A stretch of 50,862 nt of DNA, from NCBI GenBank assembly GCA_028687545.1, contig JAQTZZ010000030.1:1-50862 (forward strand), written 5' to 3'. Shown here in pieces: positions 7,349-46,570 of the stretch. This stretch comes from Candidatus Wallbacteria bacterium (lineage in GTDB: Bacteria; Muiribacteriota; JAQTZZ01). Position numbers and translations under genes: made by a program. How positions within the stretch are numbered: position 1 is the stretch's first letter; each line of letters starts with the position of its first letter. The notes below the pieces were generated by a model that searched no databases, was not told the DNA's origin, and saw only the letters and a list, made by a program, of their open reading frames with translations.

Positions 7349-7377
7349 TTGCAGGATTTAGCAATTTGGGATAACAT
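7349..7377 (+). promoter_or_regulatory. Promoter of the metalloprotease gene, predicted leaderless
   Basis: TTGCAG (7349-7354), a 17 bp spacer and TAACAT (7372-7377), followed by only 6 nt before the GTG at 7384. There is no Shine-Dalgarno sequence. Transcription would begin at or next to the start codon. Confidence 0.55.
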
Positions 7378-7383
7378 TTTCAG

Positions 7384-9105
7384 GTGAAATCTATACTCAA
7401 AGATCTCGATCCAGTCGAATTCGAACATCCAGTTGATCGGATGCTTTTGGTATCGCTCAGGAAGACGGGTCTCGACTTTATCACCAGAAAAGTGACTGAA
7501 CTTGGTGCATTCAAGCTGATCTGCTCAAAATACAGGGGCAGCAATTTCAGGATCAGCCCGGGGCATGGTCTTTACAAACACCTGGAAGCAGCCTGCGGAA
7601 TTCTTGGAATCGAGAAGATCCCTGAATTGTACCTGAAACAAGGTGGAGAAATCAGCCATCTCTCTGCTGGCACAATGGATGATTCCATCATTGTGCTGAA
7701 TTCAGGCTGCCTGGAAAACTTGGCCGAAGACGAGCTTCTCTTCTCACTCGGCCATGAACTGGGTCATATCGTCAGCAGACATATTCTTCTGCAGCAAATC
7801 TACAATGAACTGATCAAAAACCTCAGACTGCTCGACCTTCCCACTCTGGGGCTGGCGTCCCTGACATCTGATACGGTAAAACTCCTACTCCGGAAATGGA
7901 TCGCAGTCGCAGAATACACTGCAGACAGGGCCGGGTTGCTTGTCTGTCAGAACGAGGAATCGGCTGTCAGCTATCTGATGAAATTATCGGGAACTCCTCT
8001 CCATCTCTCTGAAGGTGATGATCCACAGAATTTCAGAAACCAGGCCAGTGAATTCAAAAAACAGTCCGGCGGAATGATCAGCATGTCCCTGCGGTTCATG
8101 GGCGACGATGCTTCAGGAAACAACTGGGCAGTGCTAAGATGTGGCGAATTATTGAACTGGATCAATACCGGTCAGTACAGCCTGGTATTGGAGCGGAAAT
8201 CCAGCAGGGACAGAAATGAATATTTAAAGAAGAGAGAGGATCTGAAAAGCGACCTGAATGCTTTCCCAGTACAGATTACGGATTGTCTGATCTCCATGCC
8301 GTTATTGGAACTGCCTCAGACAATAGCCGGCCTTGTACAGGAACATCGCAACCTGACAGTCAGGAAAGAAGAAAATCTGAAATCCAACACCAGGATCATT
8401 GAAGAAATGAACGCAATTCTCTCCATCAGGAACAGGAACAGTCAGGAAGAGAAAAAGCTTGAAAAATCGAGAGCTGAAATTTCGAAAAATGCCGCCGGGC
8501 TTGGCGCTGCGGTAATCGAAGCGGTGAAAGCAGGAAAGATCTCGGATTCTGAAGAGTTCAGCGACTTGCTGAGCGCTGACGAAAGATTCAGTAAAGCAAA
8601 ACAATCGGAACTTGCCCATGATCCAAAGGCAAGCGGTTTTCTTGAAAAGACTAAAGTCCTGGCTCAGGGGACTTTTCTCAAGGGCAATCTGAAACTTGCC
8701 GAAAGTCAGAAAGAGTCTGCCTGCAGAAAATTCGAAAACATGATTGCTGACATGGGCCTGATCAAAAAAATTGCCGAAGTGGTGGATTTCCAGGATCTGG
8801 AGAATATCGCAGGTATGATTGATATTTATCAAGCAGATCAGCGGAATCTGGCTGCCTCAAAAAAGGAAGCTGATGACAGAAACTCCGCAATTTCCTGCGG
8901 GATAATCAAGACCATCCACAGCGCAAAGGATGTTGAGAAGTATGAAAAGCTCCTGCATGGCGAAATCATCGCCGTCGAAGAACATCAGGAAAAGATCCGC
9001 AAGCGCATGGTCAAGGAAGTTGCCGTAATCATTGATTCTTACAGCGACGAACTGTTCGCAGACTGGCTGAGGGAAAAAATCGAGGGTTACAGAATTCATG
9101 CGTGA
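7384..9105 (+). CDS. M48-like zinc metalloprotease with long coiled-coil tail
   Basis: Zinc-dependent peptidase. The catalytic motif HELGH is at residues 124-128, and a third-ligand motif AEYTADRAG has its Glu at about 177. This spacing fits M48-type peptidases. There is no signal peptide or obvious membrane helix, so the protease is probably cytoplasmic, unlike HtpX. Residues ~255-573 are charged and heptad-like (many Lys/Glu, e.g. EEKKLEKSR), suggesting coiled coils for assembly or substrate binding. The GTG start has no Shine-Dalgarno sequence but sits 6 nt after a -10 hexamer. The last codons overlap the next gene by 8 nt, so the two are coupled. The substrate is unknown. Confidence 0.85.
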   Translation: MKSILKDLDPVEFEHPVDRMLLVSLRKTGLDFITRKVTELGAFKLICSKYRGSNFRISPGHGLYKHLEAACGILGIEKIPELYLKQGGEISHLSAGTMDDSIIVLNSGCLENLAEDELLFSLGHELGHIVSRHILLQQIYNELIKNLRLLDLPTLGLASLTSDTVKLLLRKWIAVAEYTADRAGLLVCQNEESAVSYLMKLSGTPLHLSEGDDPQNFRNQASEFKKQSGGMISMSLRFMGDDASGNNWAVLRCGELLNWINTGQYSLVLERKSSRDRNEYLKKREDLKSDLNAFPVQITDCLISMPLLELPQTIAGLVQEHRNLTVRKEENLKSNTRIIEEMNAILSIRNRNSQEEKKLEKSRAEISKNAAGLGAAVIEAVKAGKISDSEEFSDLLSADERFSKAKQSELAHDPKASGFLEKTKVLAQGTFLKGNLKLAESQKESACRKFENMIADMGLIKKIAEVVDFQDLENIAGMIDIYQADQRNLAASKKEADDRNSAISCGIIKTIHSAKDVEKYEKLLHGEIIAVEEHQEKIRKRMVKEVAVIIDSYSDELFADWLREKIEGYRIHA

Positions 9106-10033: not shown

Positions 10034-10062
10034 TTGTGCTTTCACCATAGTTCCAGTAAATT
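10034..10062 (+). promoter_or_regulatory. Promoter of tex, predicted leaderless
   Basis: TTGTGC (10034-10039), a 17 bp spacer and TAAATT (10057-10062), then 6 nt to the ATG at 10069. No Shine-Dalgarno sequence is present. Confidence 0.5.
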
Positions 10063-10068
10063 GTAAGC

Positions 10069-12219
10069 ATGGACAGAACAGATTTCATTATCAGAAACAT
10101 CAGCCAGGATTTGTCTCTCGGCAGTCAGCCGGTTTCCGCGGTAGTAGGACTGCTGGATGAAAAGGCCACCATCCCCTTCATCGCCCGCTATAGAAAAGAG
10201 CGTACCTGCGGGCTGGATGAGATCGCCATCCGCTCCATCTCTGAGAGGCTTGCCCATTACCACGAGCTGGAAAAACGCAAGGAAACCATACTCAAAACCA
10301 TCCAGGAACAGGGGAAACTGACAGATGAGCTGTCTGCTAAAATCCTTCTCTGCACTGACAAGAATCTGCTGGAAGATATTTACCTTCCTTTTAAGCCGAA
10401 AAAACGTACCAGAGCAGCCATTGCCAGGGAAAAAGGCTTGGAAGGGCTGGCTGAGATCATCTTTCTGCAGCTGAATCTGAACGGCAGCAAGACTGAGATC
10501 GTGGCAAAATTCATCAAGCCCGAACTGGGCGTGAATTCATACGAGGAAGCCATTGCCGGAGCCTTGGACATTATTGCCGAGAGAATCTCTGAGACAGGCA
10601 GTATCAGGCAATCGATCCGCGACCTGACACTCAATACAGGCCGGATCTGCTCAAACGTGAAAAAAGACTGGAAAGAAAAACCTTCCAAATTCCAGGATTA
10701 TTACGATTTCAGCGAGCCTGTCCAGAAATCCCCGTCACACAGGCTGCTCGCCATCAGGCGCGGCGAAGCAGAGGAAGTGCTTTCCTGGAAAATCACTGTG
10801 GATGAGGTACAAGCCGTCGCGATTCTGGAAAAAAGTCTGGTCAGAAATCATTCTTTCCTGTTTTATCCTGAACTTAAATCCGCGATCGAAGACTGTCTCA
10901 AGCGCTTGCTCTTCCCTGCCGTGGAATCAGAAGTATTCAACCTGAAACTTGATCAGGCAGAGCAGGAAGCCATCCAGGTATTTTCTTCCAACCTGAGGAA
11001 TCTTCTGCTTTCCGCTCCTGCAGGCCAGAAAGTAATCCTGGGAGTAGACCCGGGATTCAGGACAGGCTGCAAACTCGCTGTGATCGATGCTCAAGGAAAT
11101 TTCCAGTTTCAGCAGGCCATTTTCCCGCTTGAGCCTCACAACAGGAAAGTTGAAGCAGAAAAATCTCTTTCAGACATCATTCAAAAGTATGGAGTACAGC
11201 TGATCGCTATCGGCAATGGCACAGCCTCCAGGGAAACCGACCAGTTTGTTCGGGAATTGATCAAGCGGACTGGCCTGACTGTGAAGTCAGTGGTAGTGAG
11301 CGAAGCCGGGGCTTCGGTCTATTCTGCCTCTCTACTCGCCATCCAGGAATTCCCTGATCTGGATGTCACAGTCAGAGGCGCGATCAGCATCGCGAGAAGG
11401 CTGCAGGATCCTCTCTCAGAACTCGTGAAGATCGATCCCAAAGCGATCGGTGTCGGGCAATATCAGCACGATGTCAATCAGAAAGAGCTGAAGAGTTCCC
11501 TGGAAACAACGGTTGAGTCGTGTGTGAATCATGTGGGAGTGCAGCTGAATACTGCATCAATGGAACTTTTAAAATTCGTGTCAGGGATCGGGCCGGCCCT
11601 GGCCGGAAACATCGTTAAATTCAGATCAGAAAATGGACCGTTTTTATCACGCAAGTCTTTGTTGAAAGTTCCCAAGCTCGGCCCGAAAGCCTTTGAACAG
11701 TGTGCAGGATTTTTACGGATTCACTCATCCGAAAATCCGCTCGACAATTCAGCGATTCACCCTGAAACCTATCATCTGGTGAAGACTATGGCGGCAGACC
11801 TTGGTTTTTCCGAAACCGACCTGATCGGGCGGGATATTTCCGGTAAAATCGATCTGAACCGGTACATCTCAGCTGAATTCGGCCTGCTGACGCTTACGGA
11901 CATTTTGAGAGAACTGAAAAAGCCCGGTCTCGACCCGCGGGCTGAATTCAAGAGCATGGATTTTTCCGCAGACCTCAACTCCATCTCAGATTTGAAAGAT
12001 GGCATGATCCTGGATGGAGTTGTGACAAATGTGACTAATTTTGGAGCTTTTGTGGACATAGGTGTCCATCAGGACGGCCTTGTGCACATTTCCAAGCTCG
12101 CCAGAAAATTCGTCAAAAACCCTTCAGAAATCGTTTCTGTCGGCGACAGAGTCAGAGTGAAAATACTGAGCGTAAACCGGGACTTGAAGCGCATCTCACT
12201 GGAGCGGCTTGAAAACTGA
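10069..12219 (+). CDS. tex: Tex/YhgF family RNA-binding protein
   Basis: Cytoplasmic nucleic-acid-binding protein of the Tex family, linked to transcription and RNA processing. Domain order is complete. A helical N-terminal Tex region contains ATIPFIARYRKE and ends near residue 300. A YqgF/RNase H-like domain starts about residue 322 (ILGVDPGFRTGCK). Helix-hairpin-helix segments lie around 500-550 (FVSGIGPALA, KVPKLGPKAF). A C-terminal S1 domain spans about 645-716 (GVVTNVTNFGAFVDIG, GLVHISKLA, DRVRVKIL). Length is 716 residues, typical of the family. There is no Shine-Dalgarno sequence before the ATG, which sits 6 nt after a promoter -10. The following peptidase gene has its own promoter, so tex is probably monocistronic. 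Confidence 0.95.
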   Translation: MDRTDFIIRNISQDLSLGSQPVSAVVGLLDEKATIPFIARYRKERTCGLDEIAIRSISERLAHYHELEKRKETILKTIQEQGKLTDELSAKILLCTDKNLLEDIYLPFKPKKRTRAAIAREKGLEGLAEIIFLQLNLNGSKTEIVAKFIKPELGVNSYEEAIAGALDIIAERISETGSIRQSIRDLTLNTGRICSNVKKDWKEKPSKFQDYYDFSEPVQKSPSHRLLAIRRGEAEEVLSWKITVDEVQAVAILEKSLVRNHSFLFYPELKSAIEDCLKRLLFPAVESEVFNLKLDQAEQEAIQVFSSNLRNLLLSAPAGQKVILGVDPGFRTGCKLAVIDAQGNFQFQQAIFPLEPHNRKVEAEKSLSDIIQKYGVQLIAIGNGTASRETDQFVRELIKRTGLTVKSVVVSEAGASVYSASLLAIQEFPDLDVTVRGAISIARRLQDPLSELVKIDPKAIGVGQYQHDVNQKELKSSLETTVESCVNHVGVQLNTASMELLKFVSGIGPALAGNIVKFRSENGPFLSRKSLLKVPKLGPKAFEQCAGFLRIHSSENPLDNSAIHPETYHLVKTMAADLGFSETDLIGRDISGKIDLNRYISAEFGLLTLTDILRELKKPGLDPRAEFKSMDFSADLNSISDLKDGMILDGVVTNVTNFGAFVDIGVHQDGLVHISKLARKFVKNPSEIVSVGDRVRVKILSVNRDLKRISLERLEN

Positions 12220-14705: not shown

Positions 14706-16373
14706 TCAGTGGGTTATCTCTCCGTATTTCTGGAGTTTCTTCGGCACATACCAGCTTTCAAGGTCATGGAAAATCCAGTCAGGTGCGGATTTGATCCCGC
14801 GGATCCGTTTGCTGACAGCCAGGATTGTCATATCTGAGTAAAGAAATGTCCCGGGCTGGTCTTCCTGGATGATTTCATGGAAGCGCTGCAGAAGGTTCAT
14901 CCTTGCTGCAGGGTCGAGTTCAGTGCGGATCCTGTCTAGGAGTTCGTCAACTTCCGGGTTGTGATAAGCGATCAGATTCAGCCCGGTGTTTCCTGTTTTG
15001 AGATCAAAAATCTGGGAGGAATGGAAATACTGGTAAGGGTCATCAGACAGCATCAGGCCTACCAGCAATCCGGAAAACTGCCCAATGTAGAGTGATCTCA
15101 TAAACTCACCCAGTTCTATAAAATGGATATGAGCAAGCACACCGTTATCCTTGAGGCTTTTTTCAATGATCTGGGATGCCAGTTCCCGATTCTTGTTGCC
15201 GTGTACAGCGATCATGTCAAACTCGAATTTCTGCCCGTTTTTATCCAGGATTCCGTCCCCGTCAGTATCGCGCCATCCCTCGGATTCAAAAAGAATCTTT
15301 GCTGTAGAAGGAGAATAGGGCCATGAATCAAGCTTTTTCTCGAATTTCAGATATGGTGGAACAAAAGGTCTGGCCGGAACATATGCGTAGCCCTTGAAGA
15401 CTTCATCCACGATTGACTGGCGGTCCATTGCCATGGTCAGAGCCTTGCGAACTTTTGAACTCTGAAAAAGAGGATTGCGCAGATTGTAGCTGACGATGGT
15501 GTAATAGGAGTTATACAGATAGATGGTGAACCTGTTCATGAATTCGCGGTCTGAAGCCTGCTTCAGGTATTGATCGGCTGTCAGGAACATCAGGTCCAGC
15601 TCACCCCTCTTCAGCATCTGGAAAGCCTGGGTGAAATCAGCCATGTATTTGAACATGTAATGGTCCACGAACGGACGTCCCCGGAAATAATCTTTGTTGG
15701 CTTCAAGCAGGAGATGATCATGGGGAAGCCATTCCACAAATCGGTAGGGTCCTGTCCCGACCGGCTGGAGGTTCGGGTCCAAGCCCTTGTTTTCAAAGGC
15801 ATGTCTCGACACAATACAGTTCGCCCAGATGTTCAAAGCGTCAGCATATGGTTTGGAATATTTCACTGTCAGCGTATATTTGTCTGCAGTTTCTATCGTG
15901 TCGATCATGGAAAAATCGAAGCGCAGCCTGGATCTGGTGCCTGGATCGATGATAGTCTGATAGGTGAAAACAACATCTTCAGCTGTGAATTCCTCGCCGT
16001 CATGCCATTTCACCCCTTTTCTCAGATGGAAGGTCGCAGATTTCCCGTCTGCTGCTACTTCAAAAGTTTCAGCAAGATCCGGCTTAAGTTTCAAATGCTC
16101 ATCCGGTGTGACAAGACCGTTGAAAATCCAGCGCACAATCTCTCTGGAATAGATATCGTCGCAGAGCAGCGGATTCAGGCTCAAGGCGTCAGAATCAAGG
16201 TGATAGACGATCGTATCGCCGTAATCAACTGATTCCACGTCTTCCACGATTGTTTCCGGAGTGCCTGATGGAACAGGCAGTTTAAAGGTTTTTGTGACAC
16301 CGGATCCGTTTTCGCCACAACCGATTAGGAAAAAAACAAACAATGGCAACAGAAACAAAAGTTTACCGCGCAT
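14706..16373 (-). CDS. Peptide/nickel-type ABC transporter substrate-binding lipoprotein (SBP family 5)
   Basis: A lipoprotein signal (LFVFFLIGC, lipidated Cys at about residue 19) is followed by a full family-5 solute-binding fold. Typical motifs include DDIYSREIVRWIFNGLVTPD, LAETFEVAADGKSATFHLRKGVKWHDGE, VVFTYQ, PVGTGPYRFVEW and KVRKALTMAMDR. The last parts carry DPYQYFHSS and ILAVSKRIRG. Members capture oligopeptides or related ligands in the periplasm for an ABC importer. No permease or ATPase gene is adjacent, so this is an orphan receptor here. The start codon lies 6 nt after a near-consensus -10 and has no Shine-Dalgarno sequence, predicting a leaderless mRNA. Length 555 is usual. Confidence 0.92.
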   Translation of the reverse strand: MRGKLLFLLPLFVFFLIGCGENGSGVTKTFKLPVPSGTPETIVEDVESVDYGDTIVYHLDSDALSLNPLLCDDIYSREIVRWIFNGLVTPDEHLKLKPDLAETFEVAADGKSATFHLRKGVKWHDGEEFTAEDVVFTYQTIIDPGTRSRLRFDFSMIDTIETADKYTLTVKYSKPYADALNIWANCIVSRHAFENKGLDPNLQPVGTGPYRFVEWLPHDHLLLEANKDYFRGRPFVDHYMFKYMADFTQAFQMLKRGELDLMFLTADQYLKQASDREFMNRFTIYLYNSYYTIVSYNLRNPLFQSSKVRKALTMAMDRQSIVDEVFKGYAYVPARPFVPPYLKFEKKLDSWPYSPSTAKILFESEGWRDTDGDGILDKNGQKFEFDMIAVHGNKNRELASQIIEKSLKDNGVLAHIHFIELGEFMRSLYIGQFSGLLVGLMLSDDPYQYFHSSQIFDLKTGNTGLNLIAYHNPEVDELLDRIRTELDPAARMNLLQRFHEIIQEDQPGTFLYSDMTILAVSKRIRGIKSAPDWIFHDLESWYVPKKLQKYGEITH

Positions 16374-16379
16374 GCCGGA

Positions 16380-16408
16380 ATTATAAACCCCTTTGATTTT
16401 GGATTCAA
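16380..16408 (-). promoter_or_regulatory. Promoter of the binding-protein gene, predicted leaderless
   Basis: On the minus strand: TTGAAT (16403-16408), a 17 bp spacer and a perfect TATAAT (16380-16385), then 6 nt (TCCGGC) to the ATG at 16373. This is the clearest leaderless candidate in the window. Confidence 0.75.
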
Positions 16409-16426
16409 TCCGAAGGAATTATATGG

Positions 16427-16455
16427 TTGACACAAGCCTCAATGTTCAATAGGAT
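16427..16455 (+). promoter_or_regulatory. Sigma70-type promoter for the receiver gene
   Basis: A perfect TTGACA (16427-16432), a 17 bp spacer and TAGGAT (16450-16455). The predicted leader of about 28 nt carries GGGGGAT before the ATG at 16490. It lies back to back with the binding-protein promoter. Confidence 0.75.
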
Positions 16456-16489
16456 GATTTTCAGGATATCCAAATCAGGGGGATCTTTA

Positions 16490-16852
16490 ATGCCAAAAAA
16501 AATATTGGTCTGCGACGATGACCTGGATTTTGCGAGACTGATCATGGCCAAACTGAAATCCGAAGGGTATGAAGTTGTGATAGCAGCAGACAGCATCCAA
16601 AGTGTTGCCTTGGCACACAAAGAAAAACCGGATCTGATCCTCCTTGACATTAAAATGCCGGCAGGAGGCGTTTATACGGTTCATGAAAAATTGAGACTGT
16701 CGTCTGCCACCATGTCGATCCCTGTAATATTAGTCTCTGCCCTGCCATTTGAAACTGTTAGGGAACACGCAGCTCAACTGGGGGTCTCAGATTTCCAGAT
16801 TAAACCTTGTCAGCCTGAAGAAATAATAAAAAAGATTGAAAAACTTATCTGA
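16490..16852 (+). CDS. Stand-alone response-regulator receiver protein
   Basis: A 120-residue CheY-like domain with the acidic pocket CDDD, the phospho-acceptor Asp53 in LLDIKMP, a Ser switch residue in LVSAL and the conserved Lys in QIKP. There is no output domain, so it should act by protein contact or in a phosphorelay. The open frame extends upstream to a TTG at 16427, but that codon forms part of the promoter -35. The ATG at 16490 has a good GGGGGA site. No histidine kinase is adjacent; the nearest is at 27475. The gene is monocistronic between two minus-strand genes. Confidence 0.9.
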   Translation: MPKKILVCDDDLDFARLIMAKLKSEGYEVVIAADSIQSVALAHKEKPDLILLDIKMPAGGVYTVHEKLRLSSATMSIPVILVSALPFETVREHAAQLGVSDFQIKPCQPEEIIKKIEKLI

Positions 16853-34579: not shown

Positions 34580-34588
34580 TGTTATAAT
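34580..34588 (+). promoter_or_regulatory. Extended -10 promoter, predicted leaderless
   Basis: TG (34580-34581), one base, then a perfect TATAAT (34583-34588), followed by 6 nt to the ATG at 34595. The region 17 bp upstream (TGGCTT) is a poor -35; an extended -10 can compensate. No Shine-Dalgarno sequence is present. Confidence 0.5.
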
Positions 34589-34594
34589 TTCCTG

Positions 34595-35914
34595 ATGAAC
34601 AAGAAGGCTTTCAGTTTTATCGAACTGGTGATGGTGATGGTGATCATCTCCATCATAACAGCAGGTTTGATAGCTTCATTTGAGATCATGTTCGATCATG
34701 CCAGGCACTCCAGGGCCAAGGCTGAACTTTCCAGAATTGCAGACCTGATCAGAGACTATCACAATCACATGGATAAATGGCCTCTGGAATTGACTGATCT
34801 TCCGCTGGAATCGCTCAGTTCAACTCAACGATTCGATCCGTGGGGAGTCCCATATACAATCCTGAATTACAAAGTTGCCTCAGTGCTATATGCCAAGGAT
34901 GGTACAATTCAACTATTGAATGAAAGGGAGCAATTCAGATTTTCCAGGCTCTATGCTTTTGGGCAGAACGGCAGAGGCTATGCCGGAGTCTGGCTGTCCA
35001 GTACTGGAGGGGAATCATTTTCGCTGCTGATTGATACAGCCTCGCTGCCGGAACCCATGACAAATCCGGGATTTTTCAATAACCTGCAGTACCCCCAGCT
35101 TAATGCAGGCAGAATTTTCATTGTCAACGAAGGAGACAACAGACTGTTCAGCTTCAGTCCTGAAAACAACGACCTCCGTTACAGCGGATTGATGTTACAG
35201 TCCTGCCTGATCAGCCGTGGGATCGCCTGGTTTATGGACAGTTCAAGCAGGCTTTTTTTCACAACTGATGGCGCTGTTACTTATCAGATGTATAAAGATT
35301 ACGGCTCTTCTCCTTCTGCCCCTGTCCTCTACCAGGACGCCTGTTTTAACAATTACATGCTCTGGGAAACCGACACCCTGGAAATCCATTCCCTGACTAC
35401 TGGTAACCGCCTGGAGCAATATTTCCCGGGTAATTTTCAGCATTTCCTCCAGGGCAGCACCGAAATTTACGGCTATGGCAGTTCAGGTCTCTACCACCTT
35501 GAAAAAAACGCAGCCAGAAACTCTTACATACCATTCGGCAGGGAAGGCATCAATGACTGGAAACAAATCCAGTCCGGCAGCATCAGTAAAGCCTGGCTGT
35601 TCGAAGACCTGATCATCGTCCAGGGCAGTTCCGGAGAACACCAGTATTTCGACAATGCTGACCAGCAGTGGAAAGATCTGGCTGAACTCTGGCCAGGCGG
35701 CCCCAGTACATATGGCAAAATTGTCTGTATTTATCTGGTGGGCCAGGAATACTGGGTTACAGCCACCACTGGCGGAACCTCGGTAAGGCTTTACCACAGC
35801 CTCGATTCCGGCGCTTCCTGGACATATTGTCCGGAAAGACATGGAGCAGCTAGTGGTCCGTTTTTACTGGGTGACAGTGATTTTAACACTCCGTTCATTT
35901 ATTACAGAGAATAA
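34595..35914 (+). CDS. GspG-like pseudopilin fused to a propeller-like domain
   Basis: The N-terminus is a type IV prepilin signal (MNKKAFSFIELVMVMVIISI) with the conserved Glu at +5, expected to be cut by a prepilin peptidase. Residues ~35-90 match the core of GspG-type pseudopilins, including a DPWGVPY segment. Some 330 extra residues follow, rich in Trp, Tyr and Ser. They include an exact Asp-box SLDSGASW at 402-409, typical of BNR/sialidase-like beta-propellers. It may form a pilus or secretion tip with a binding head. No other type II/IV secretion genes are nearby. It appears to be transcribed from its own extended -10 promoter as a leaderless mRNA. Confidence 0.85.
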   Translation: MNKKAFSFIELVMVMVIISIITAGLIASFEIMFDHARHSRAKAELSRIADLIRDYHNHMDKWPLELTDLPLESLSSTQRFDPWGVPYTILNYKVASVLYAKDGTIQLLNEREQFRFSRLYAFGQNGRGYAGVWLSSTGGESFSLLIDTASLPEPMTNPGFFNNLQYPQLNAGRIFIVNEGDNRLFSFSPENNDLRYSGLMLQSCLISRGIAWFMDSSSRLFFTTDGAVTYQMYKDYGSSPSAPVLYQDACFNNYMLWETDTLEIHSLTTGNRLEQYFPGNFQHFLQGSTEIYGYGSSGLYHLEKNAARNSYIPFGREGINDWKQIQSGSISKAWLFEDLIIVQGSSGEHQYFDNADQQWKDLAELWPGGPSTYGKIVCIYLVGQEYWVTATTGGTSVRLYHSLDSGASWTYCPERHGAASGPFLLGDSDFNTPFIYYRE

Positions 35915-39557: not shown

Positions 39558-39586
39558 AATTTAGCATGAATTGAATGTGTTTTCAA
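39558..39586 (-). promoter_or_regulatory. Promoter of the HEAT gene, predicted leaderless
   Basis: On the minus strand: TTGAAA (39581-39586), a 17 bp spacer and TAAATT (39558-39563), then 6 nt to the ATG at 39551. Confidence 0.6.
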
Positions 39587-39609: not shown

Positions 39610-39638
39610 TTGAACACTATTGATTTATTGGATAATAT
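39610..39638 (+). promoter_or_regulatory. Promoter of the hydrolase-like gene, predicted leaderless
   Basis: TTGAAC (39610-39615), a 17 bp spacer and TAATAT (39633-39638), then 6 nt to the ATG at 39645. It lies back to back with the HEAT promoter, the two -35 boxes 23 bp apart. Confidence 0.6.
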
Positions 39639-46541: not shown

Positions 46542-46570
46542 ATTTTAAACCAATTTGGGAAATATTAAAA
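46542..46570 (-). promoter_or_regulatory. Promoter of the YdeI gene, predicted leaderless
   Basis: On the minus strand: TTTTAA (46565-46570), a 17 bp spacer and TAAAAT (46542-46547), then 6 nt to the ATG at 46535. The -35 match is weak. Confidence 0.45.

Follow-up and report, generated by a model that had tools for sequence, protein, structure and literature searches.

Promoters that place the beginning of the mRNA at the start codon are a known mode of bacterial gene expression. In a survey of 953 bacterial genomes, 207 were found to carry the hexamer TANNNT some 12 bp upstream of gene starts, and the mode of starting was seen to change between orthologues with distance (Zheng et al. 2011, PMC3160421). 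The "-10 motif adjacent to ORF" of Deinococcus has been tested as a promoter for leaderless mRNA, and it is strengthened by a -35 element placed at 17 bp (Zhong et al. 2025, PMC12340547). Leaderless transcripts have been mapped also in Mycobacterium tuberculosis, for about a quarter of its genes (Cortes et al. 2013, PMC3898074).

The promoters described here belong to an uncultured bacterium, the lineage of which has probably never been examined before for leaderless starts. They resemble the class of Zheng et al. (2011, PMC3160421) in having the same hexamer with its first T at -12, in coexisting with genes led by Shine-Dalgarno (SD) sequences and in switching mode between orthologues. Their frequency, ~4-6% of genes (about one in twenty) predicted as leaderless by our own estimate of the excess over local background, is low to middling in the table of that 953-genome survey. 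As in Deinococcus (PMC12340547), the spacing between TANNNT and the ORF is fixed; most Deinococcus sites are without a -35, whereas about half of those presented here have one at 17 bp. The likeness to M. tuberculosis (PMC3898074) consists of a TANNNT -10, a transcription start at the start codon (predicted in our case) and a mixed genome, but there the mode extends to about a quarter of genes without any -35 motif, while here few genes use it and the -35 is present; moreover, GTG is as frequent in the leaderless genes of M. tuberculosis as in leadered ones, whereas ATG is favoured here. The finding is not surprising as such and leaves the picture of bacterial initiation unchanged; what it adds is the lineage, the estimate of frequency and the uneven spread within the phylum. 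It would correct the annotation of start codons for perhaps 150-200 genes per genome (our own extrapolation), and a lineage of mixed use permits the switching of mode to be followed gene by gene.

Seven start-adjacent -10 elements in the window

The stretch of DNA under analysis, hereafter the window, has 50,862 nt and constitutes one contig (C30) of the 4.54-Mb, 108-contig genome of Candidatus Wallbacteria bacterium (G000; assembly GCA_028687545.1), of which ~1.07 Mb was sampled as stretches. The initial annotation had reported, at seven genes of the window, a TANNNT hexamer that ends 6 nt upstream of the start codon; with the upstream regions aligned in register, all seven hexamers were found as placed (table 1). 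An independent gene call by coding hexamers, comprising 38 genes, returned exactly the same seven first starts with TANNNT at offset 6 and no others. The hexamer occurs with a frequency of 1.85% per offset, and the seven first-start genes among 38 compare with 0.70 expected from other offsets (Poisson P 9e-6). The argument that identical spacing at unrelated genes would not be due to chance holds also against shuffled sequence, in which the spacing did not recur at equal frequency: across 300 Markov shuffles of these upstream regions the hexamer averaged 0.53 occurrences and never exceeded 3, and the hexamer together with a -35 at 17 bp, a combination observed six times, averaged 0.03 and never exceeded 1.

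Table 1. Promoter and gene features of the window, in positions of the 50,862-nt stretch.
Feature	Position	Strand	Start codon and product	Remarks
Predicted leaderless gene	14706..16373	-	ATG 16373, SBP_bac_5 lipoprotein	Start fixed by signal peptide MRGKLLFLLPLFVFFLIGC
Focal promoter: -35 TTGAAT (16408-16403), 17-bp spacer, -10 TATAAT (16385-16380)	16380..16408	-	ATG 16373	Predicted transcription start is the A of ATG 16373
Contrast leadered promoter: TTGACA-17-TAGGAT	16427-16455	+	ATG 16490, response regulator	Divergent from focal gene; GGGGGA at 16478-16483
-35 TTGCAG, 17 bp, -10 TAACAT	7349..7377	+	GTG 7384, M48 peptidase	Start codon uncertain
-35 TTGTGC, 17 bp, -10 TAAATT	10034..10062	+	ATG 10069, Tex RNA-binding protein	
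Extended -10 TG-T-TATAAT	34580..34588	+	ATG 34595, pilin-like protein	
-35 TTGAAA (39586-39581), 17 bp, -10 TAAATT (39563-39558)	39558..39586	-	ATG 39551, HEAT-repeat protein	
-35 TTGAAC, 17 bp, -10 TAATAT	39610..39638	+	ATG 39645	Divergent partner of 39551
-35 TTTTAA (weak), 17 bp, -10 TAAAAT	46542..46570	-	ATG 46535, OmdA/YdeI-like protein	

All six -35-like hexamers that had been described at 17 bp are present, but TTGCAG, TTGTGC and TTTTAA match TTGACA at only 3/6 positions. At the seventh site the extended -10 said to replace the -35 is confirmed (the hexamer at 17 bp is TGGCTT), and so is the pair of TATAAT and TTGAAT upstream of the focal gene. The 93 bp between the start codons of the divergent pair 39551/39645 hold both promoters, and both genes are predicted to be leaderless. 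A search of the window against Rfam gave no match.

The start codons are predictions, only some of which are anchored: that of the focal gene by its signal peptide, that at 34595 by a prepilin N-methylation motif in residues 2-25 and that at 10069 by homology, since its product aligns with Tex proteins from near their N-terminus. Single sites can be false, because ~11-15 of the 48 offset-6 sites in the bacterium's own genome are expected by chance; those most at risk are 34595, 7384 and 46535. ATG 34595 sits 15 nt 3' of a same-strand gene of the SpoU methylase type, and could be read from the mRNA of that upstream gene.

The offset-6 peak in the genome

The genome-wide motif search proposed in the initial annotation, conducted on the sampled stretches, reproduced outside the window both the peak at offset 6 and the -35 at 17 bp. 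In the whole sample of the genome, TANNNT lies at offset (d) 6 in 48 of 838 first starts, as compared with 12, 11, 11, 14 and 8 at d = 3, 4, 5, 7 and 8, respectively. The peak falls on ATG, with none seen at d = 6 before TTG or, in a control within the same genome, before internal in-frame ATGs. When the window is left out, the hexamer stands at d = 6 in 41 of 800 genes, where 14.9 would be expected (P 2e-8); adding a -35 that matches at 4/6 positions or more at 16-18 bp, the comparison becomes 26 against 3.1 (P 7e-16).

These figures bear upon the possibility that the pattern consists of chance AT-rich matches, picked by a reader scanning many features. The hexamer is indeed common, three of the six -35 elements in the window are poor matches, and the window is denser in offset-6 sites than the genome (7/38 vs 41/800, Fisher P 0.004), as selection would give; it was noticed in part because of this richness. 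Yet 800 genes unseen by the reader show the peak at an identical offset, with a correctly placed -35 that was outside the selection criteria. For the whole set, chance is refuted by this out-of-window test and we consider it very improbable, while it can still apply to single sites.

The -10 element belongs to a promoter with a -35 at ~17 bp. Among sites picked by TANNNT alone, a -35 match at spacer 17 is found in 45% of those at d = 6 and 47% of those at d = 7, and in 0-10% at other spacers and offsets (4-10% for most other offsets), apart from small-sample scatter. Base frequencies at positions -35 to -30, for sites picked by the -10 alone, are T.69, T.67, G.56, A.46, C.41 and A.51. The genes at d = 6 tend to stand first in their transcription units, having a divergent upstream neighbour in 46% vs 23% of cases and at least 35 nt of free upstream space in 85% vs 52%. 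Hydrophobic N-termini are not enriched among the leaderless genes (15/43 vs 233/795, P 0.49). A further feature seen in this genome is that the spacer is T-rich just 5' of the -10: counted from the ATG of the leaderless genes, positions -21 to -17 have 44-62% T vs ~30% elsewhere.

Probable coexistence with Shine-Dalgarno starts and alternative readings

None of the 48 genes at d = 6 has an SD sequence at the appropriate spacing, as compared with 50%. The initial annotation had counted this absence as an argument on its own, which is not supported: TANNNT at offsets 3 to 10 is similarly SD-poor, because the hexamer in that position excludes an SD, and the depletion, being largely forced by the position of the motif, was rejected as evidence for the leaderless mode. 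The related proposal that two modes of start coexist is supported as to leaderless genes standing beside SD-led ones, but the gene at 16490, which had been credited with a strong GGAGG, carries GGGGGA instead. The intergenic region 16374-16489 displays both modes: TTGAAT-17-TATAAT-N6-ATG on the minus strand, and on the plus strand (16427..16490) TTGACA-17-TAGGAT with a leader of ~28 nt after it. The anti-SD at the 3'-end of 16S rRNA, GGATCACCTCCTTT, is intact and has one occurrence in the genome, and the remaining genes are mostly leadered with SD sites.

The best explanation of these observations is very probably leaderless transcription beside SD-led genes, with a predicted mRNA start at the start codon. 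We infer the transcription start, the sigma factor and the mode of ribosome entry as follows. Promoters of housekeeping type, with -35 and -10 elements, would be set so that the first transcribed base is the A of the start codon or lies no more than 1 nt from it. The resulting mRNAs would have neither a 5' leader nor a ribosome-binding site, and their 5'-terminal start codon would be recognised directly for translation, as for known leaderless mRNAs.

Two other readings have to be weighed against this explanation. The promoters might be real and the start codons misassigned, translation beginning at a downstream codon so that a short leader remains. Such a reading finds some ground in the starts at 7384 (GTG) and 39645, which are less sure for having no anchor from other evidence and for which the coding-signal boundary lies downstream (at 7441 and 39795, respectively). 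However, a wrong start would not keep a fixed distance of 6 nt from the -10, and several starts are fixed by a signal peptide or the prepilin motif. The strict pattern, counted in 40 whole genomes of the phylum only and summed over tables, has 58 matches at d = 5, 170 at d = 6, 127 at d = 8 and 104 at d = 9; the sharp fall from d = 6 to d = 5, as would be expected if transcription had to begin no further downstream than the start codon, also speaks against misassignment, leaving it as improbable as chance. The count at d = 9 was discarded as a background since it is an unclean control, with real short-leader promoters also there, and d = 5 serves better. The other reading, according to which the TA-rich element is no promoter but a non-canonical ribosome-binding or unwinding signal, of the AT-rich non-SD kind known in Bacteroides-type genomes (PMC9581028), is the least credible of all, given the TTGACA-like hexamers that accompany the element at exactly 17 bp and the divergent or free upstream space that promoters predict.

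Relatives, paralogues and the switching of mode

The offset-6 motif is found in 9 of 182 genes of the sister genus (G001), against 2.2 expected. Family f2 has 9/136 vs 4.6 expected and family f6 has 6/51 vs 2.0, both from small samples, while the sampled genes of families f3, f4 and f5 show no excess at this offset, the sample of f4 being small. Our tentative reading, to which we give somewhat less than an even chance, is that leaderless initiation with full -35/-10 promoters may have become, or stayed, a regular mode in a single branch of this uncultured phylum (families f1, f2, f6), with the sister families using it little; the phylum would then offer a natural series for switching between SD-led and leaderless starts.

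At the level of single genes, tex has the leaderless layout at 10069 in our genome and is led by an SD sequence, GAGGT or one like it, in most genomes of f5, so conservation of the leaderless mode does not extend to the single gene. The Tex sequences are scattered among phyla in their tree, probably due to transfer. Of the ~30 SBP paralogues in our genome, a few show the leaderless layout, among them the nearest paralogue of the focal lipoprotein (65% amino acid identity), whose promoter is arranged in the same way; others carry an SD. The SBP_bac_5 lipoproteins are greatly expanded here, the focal protein having 35 matches in G000, while each of the phylum's other genomes has 1-13.

Conservation between G000 and G001 gave one clear conserved promoter in a sample of only 18 reciprocal pairs: the orthologues at G000 C5:50648 and on G001 C407 keep TTGACA, the 17-bp spacer, a -10 of TATAT type and the place before ATG. 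Over the -35 of this predicted leaderless ATPase gene (G000 C5:50648(-), locus L122) there is an inverted repeat, CCAAATTGTCA-N6-TTGACAATTTGG, which is largely retained in the orthologue of the sister genus (L291) and is likely an operator.

Two observations on the families may be added. In family f4 (G004, G008, G011, G014) there are very many strong TTGA-17-TATAAT promoters near ATG, 151 in G004 vs 31 in G000, which spread over offsets of 6 and above without a peak at 6. In f1, f2, f4 and f6 an insertion of ~300-480 nt splits the PF00562 domain of RpoB, which is unsplit in most of f3, f5 and f7 (RpoB genes at G000:C47, G001:C440, G002:C64, G004:C44, G006:C230, G011:C156 and G014:C56); this insertion may mark a clade that holds the leaderless-rich families.
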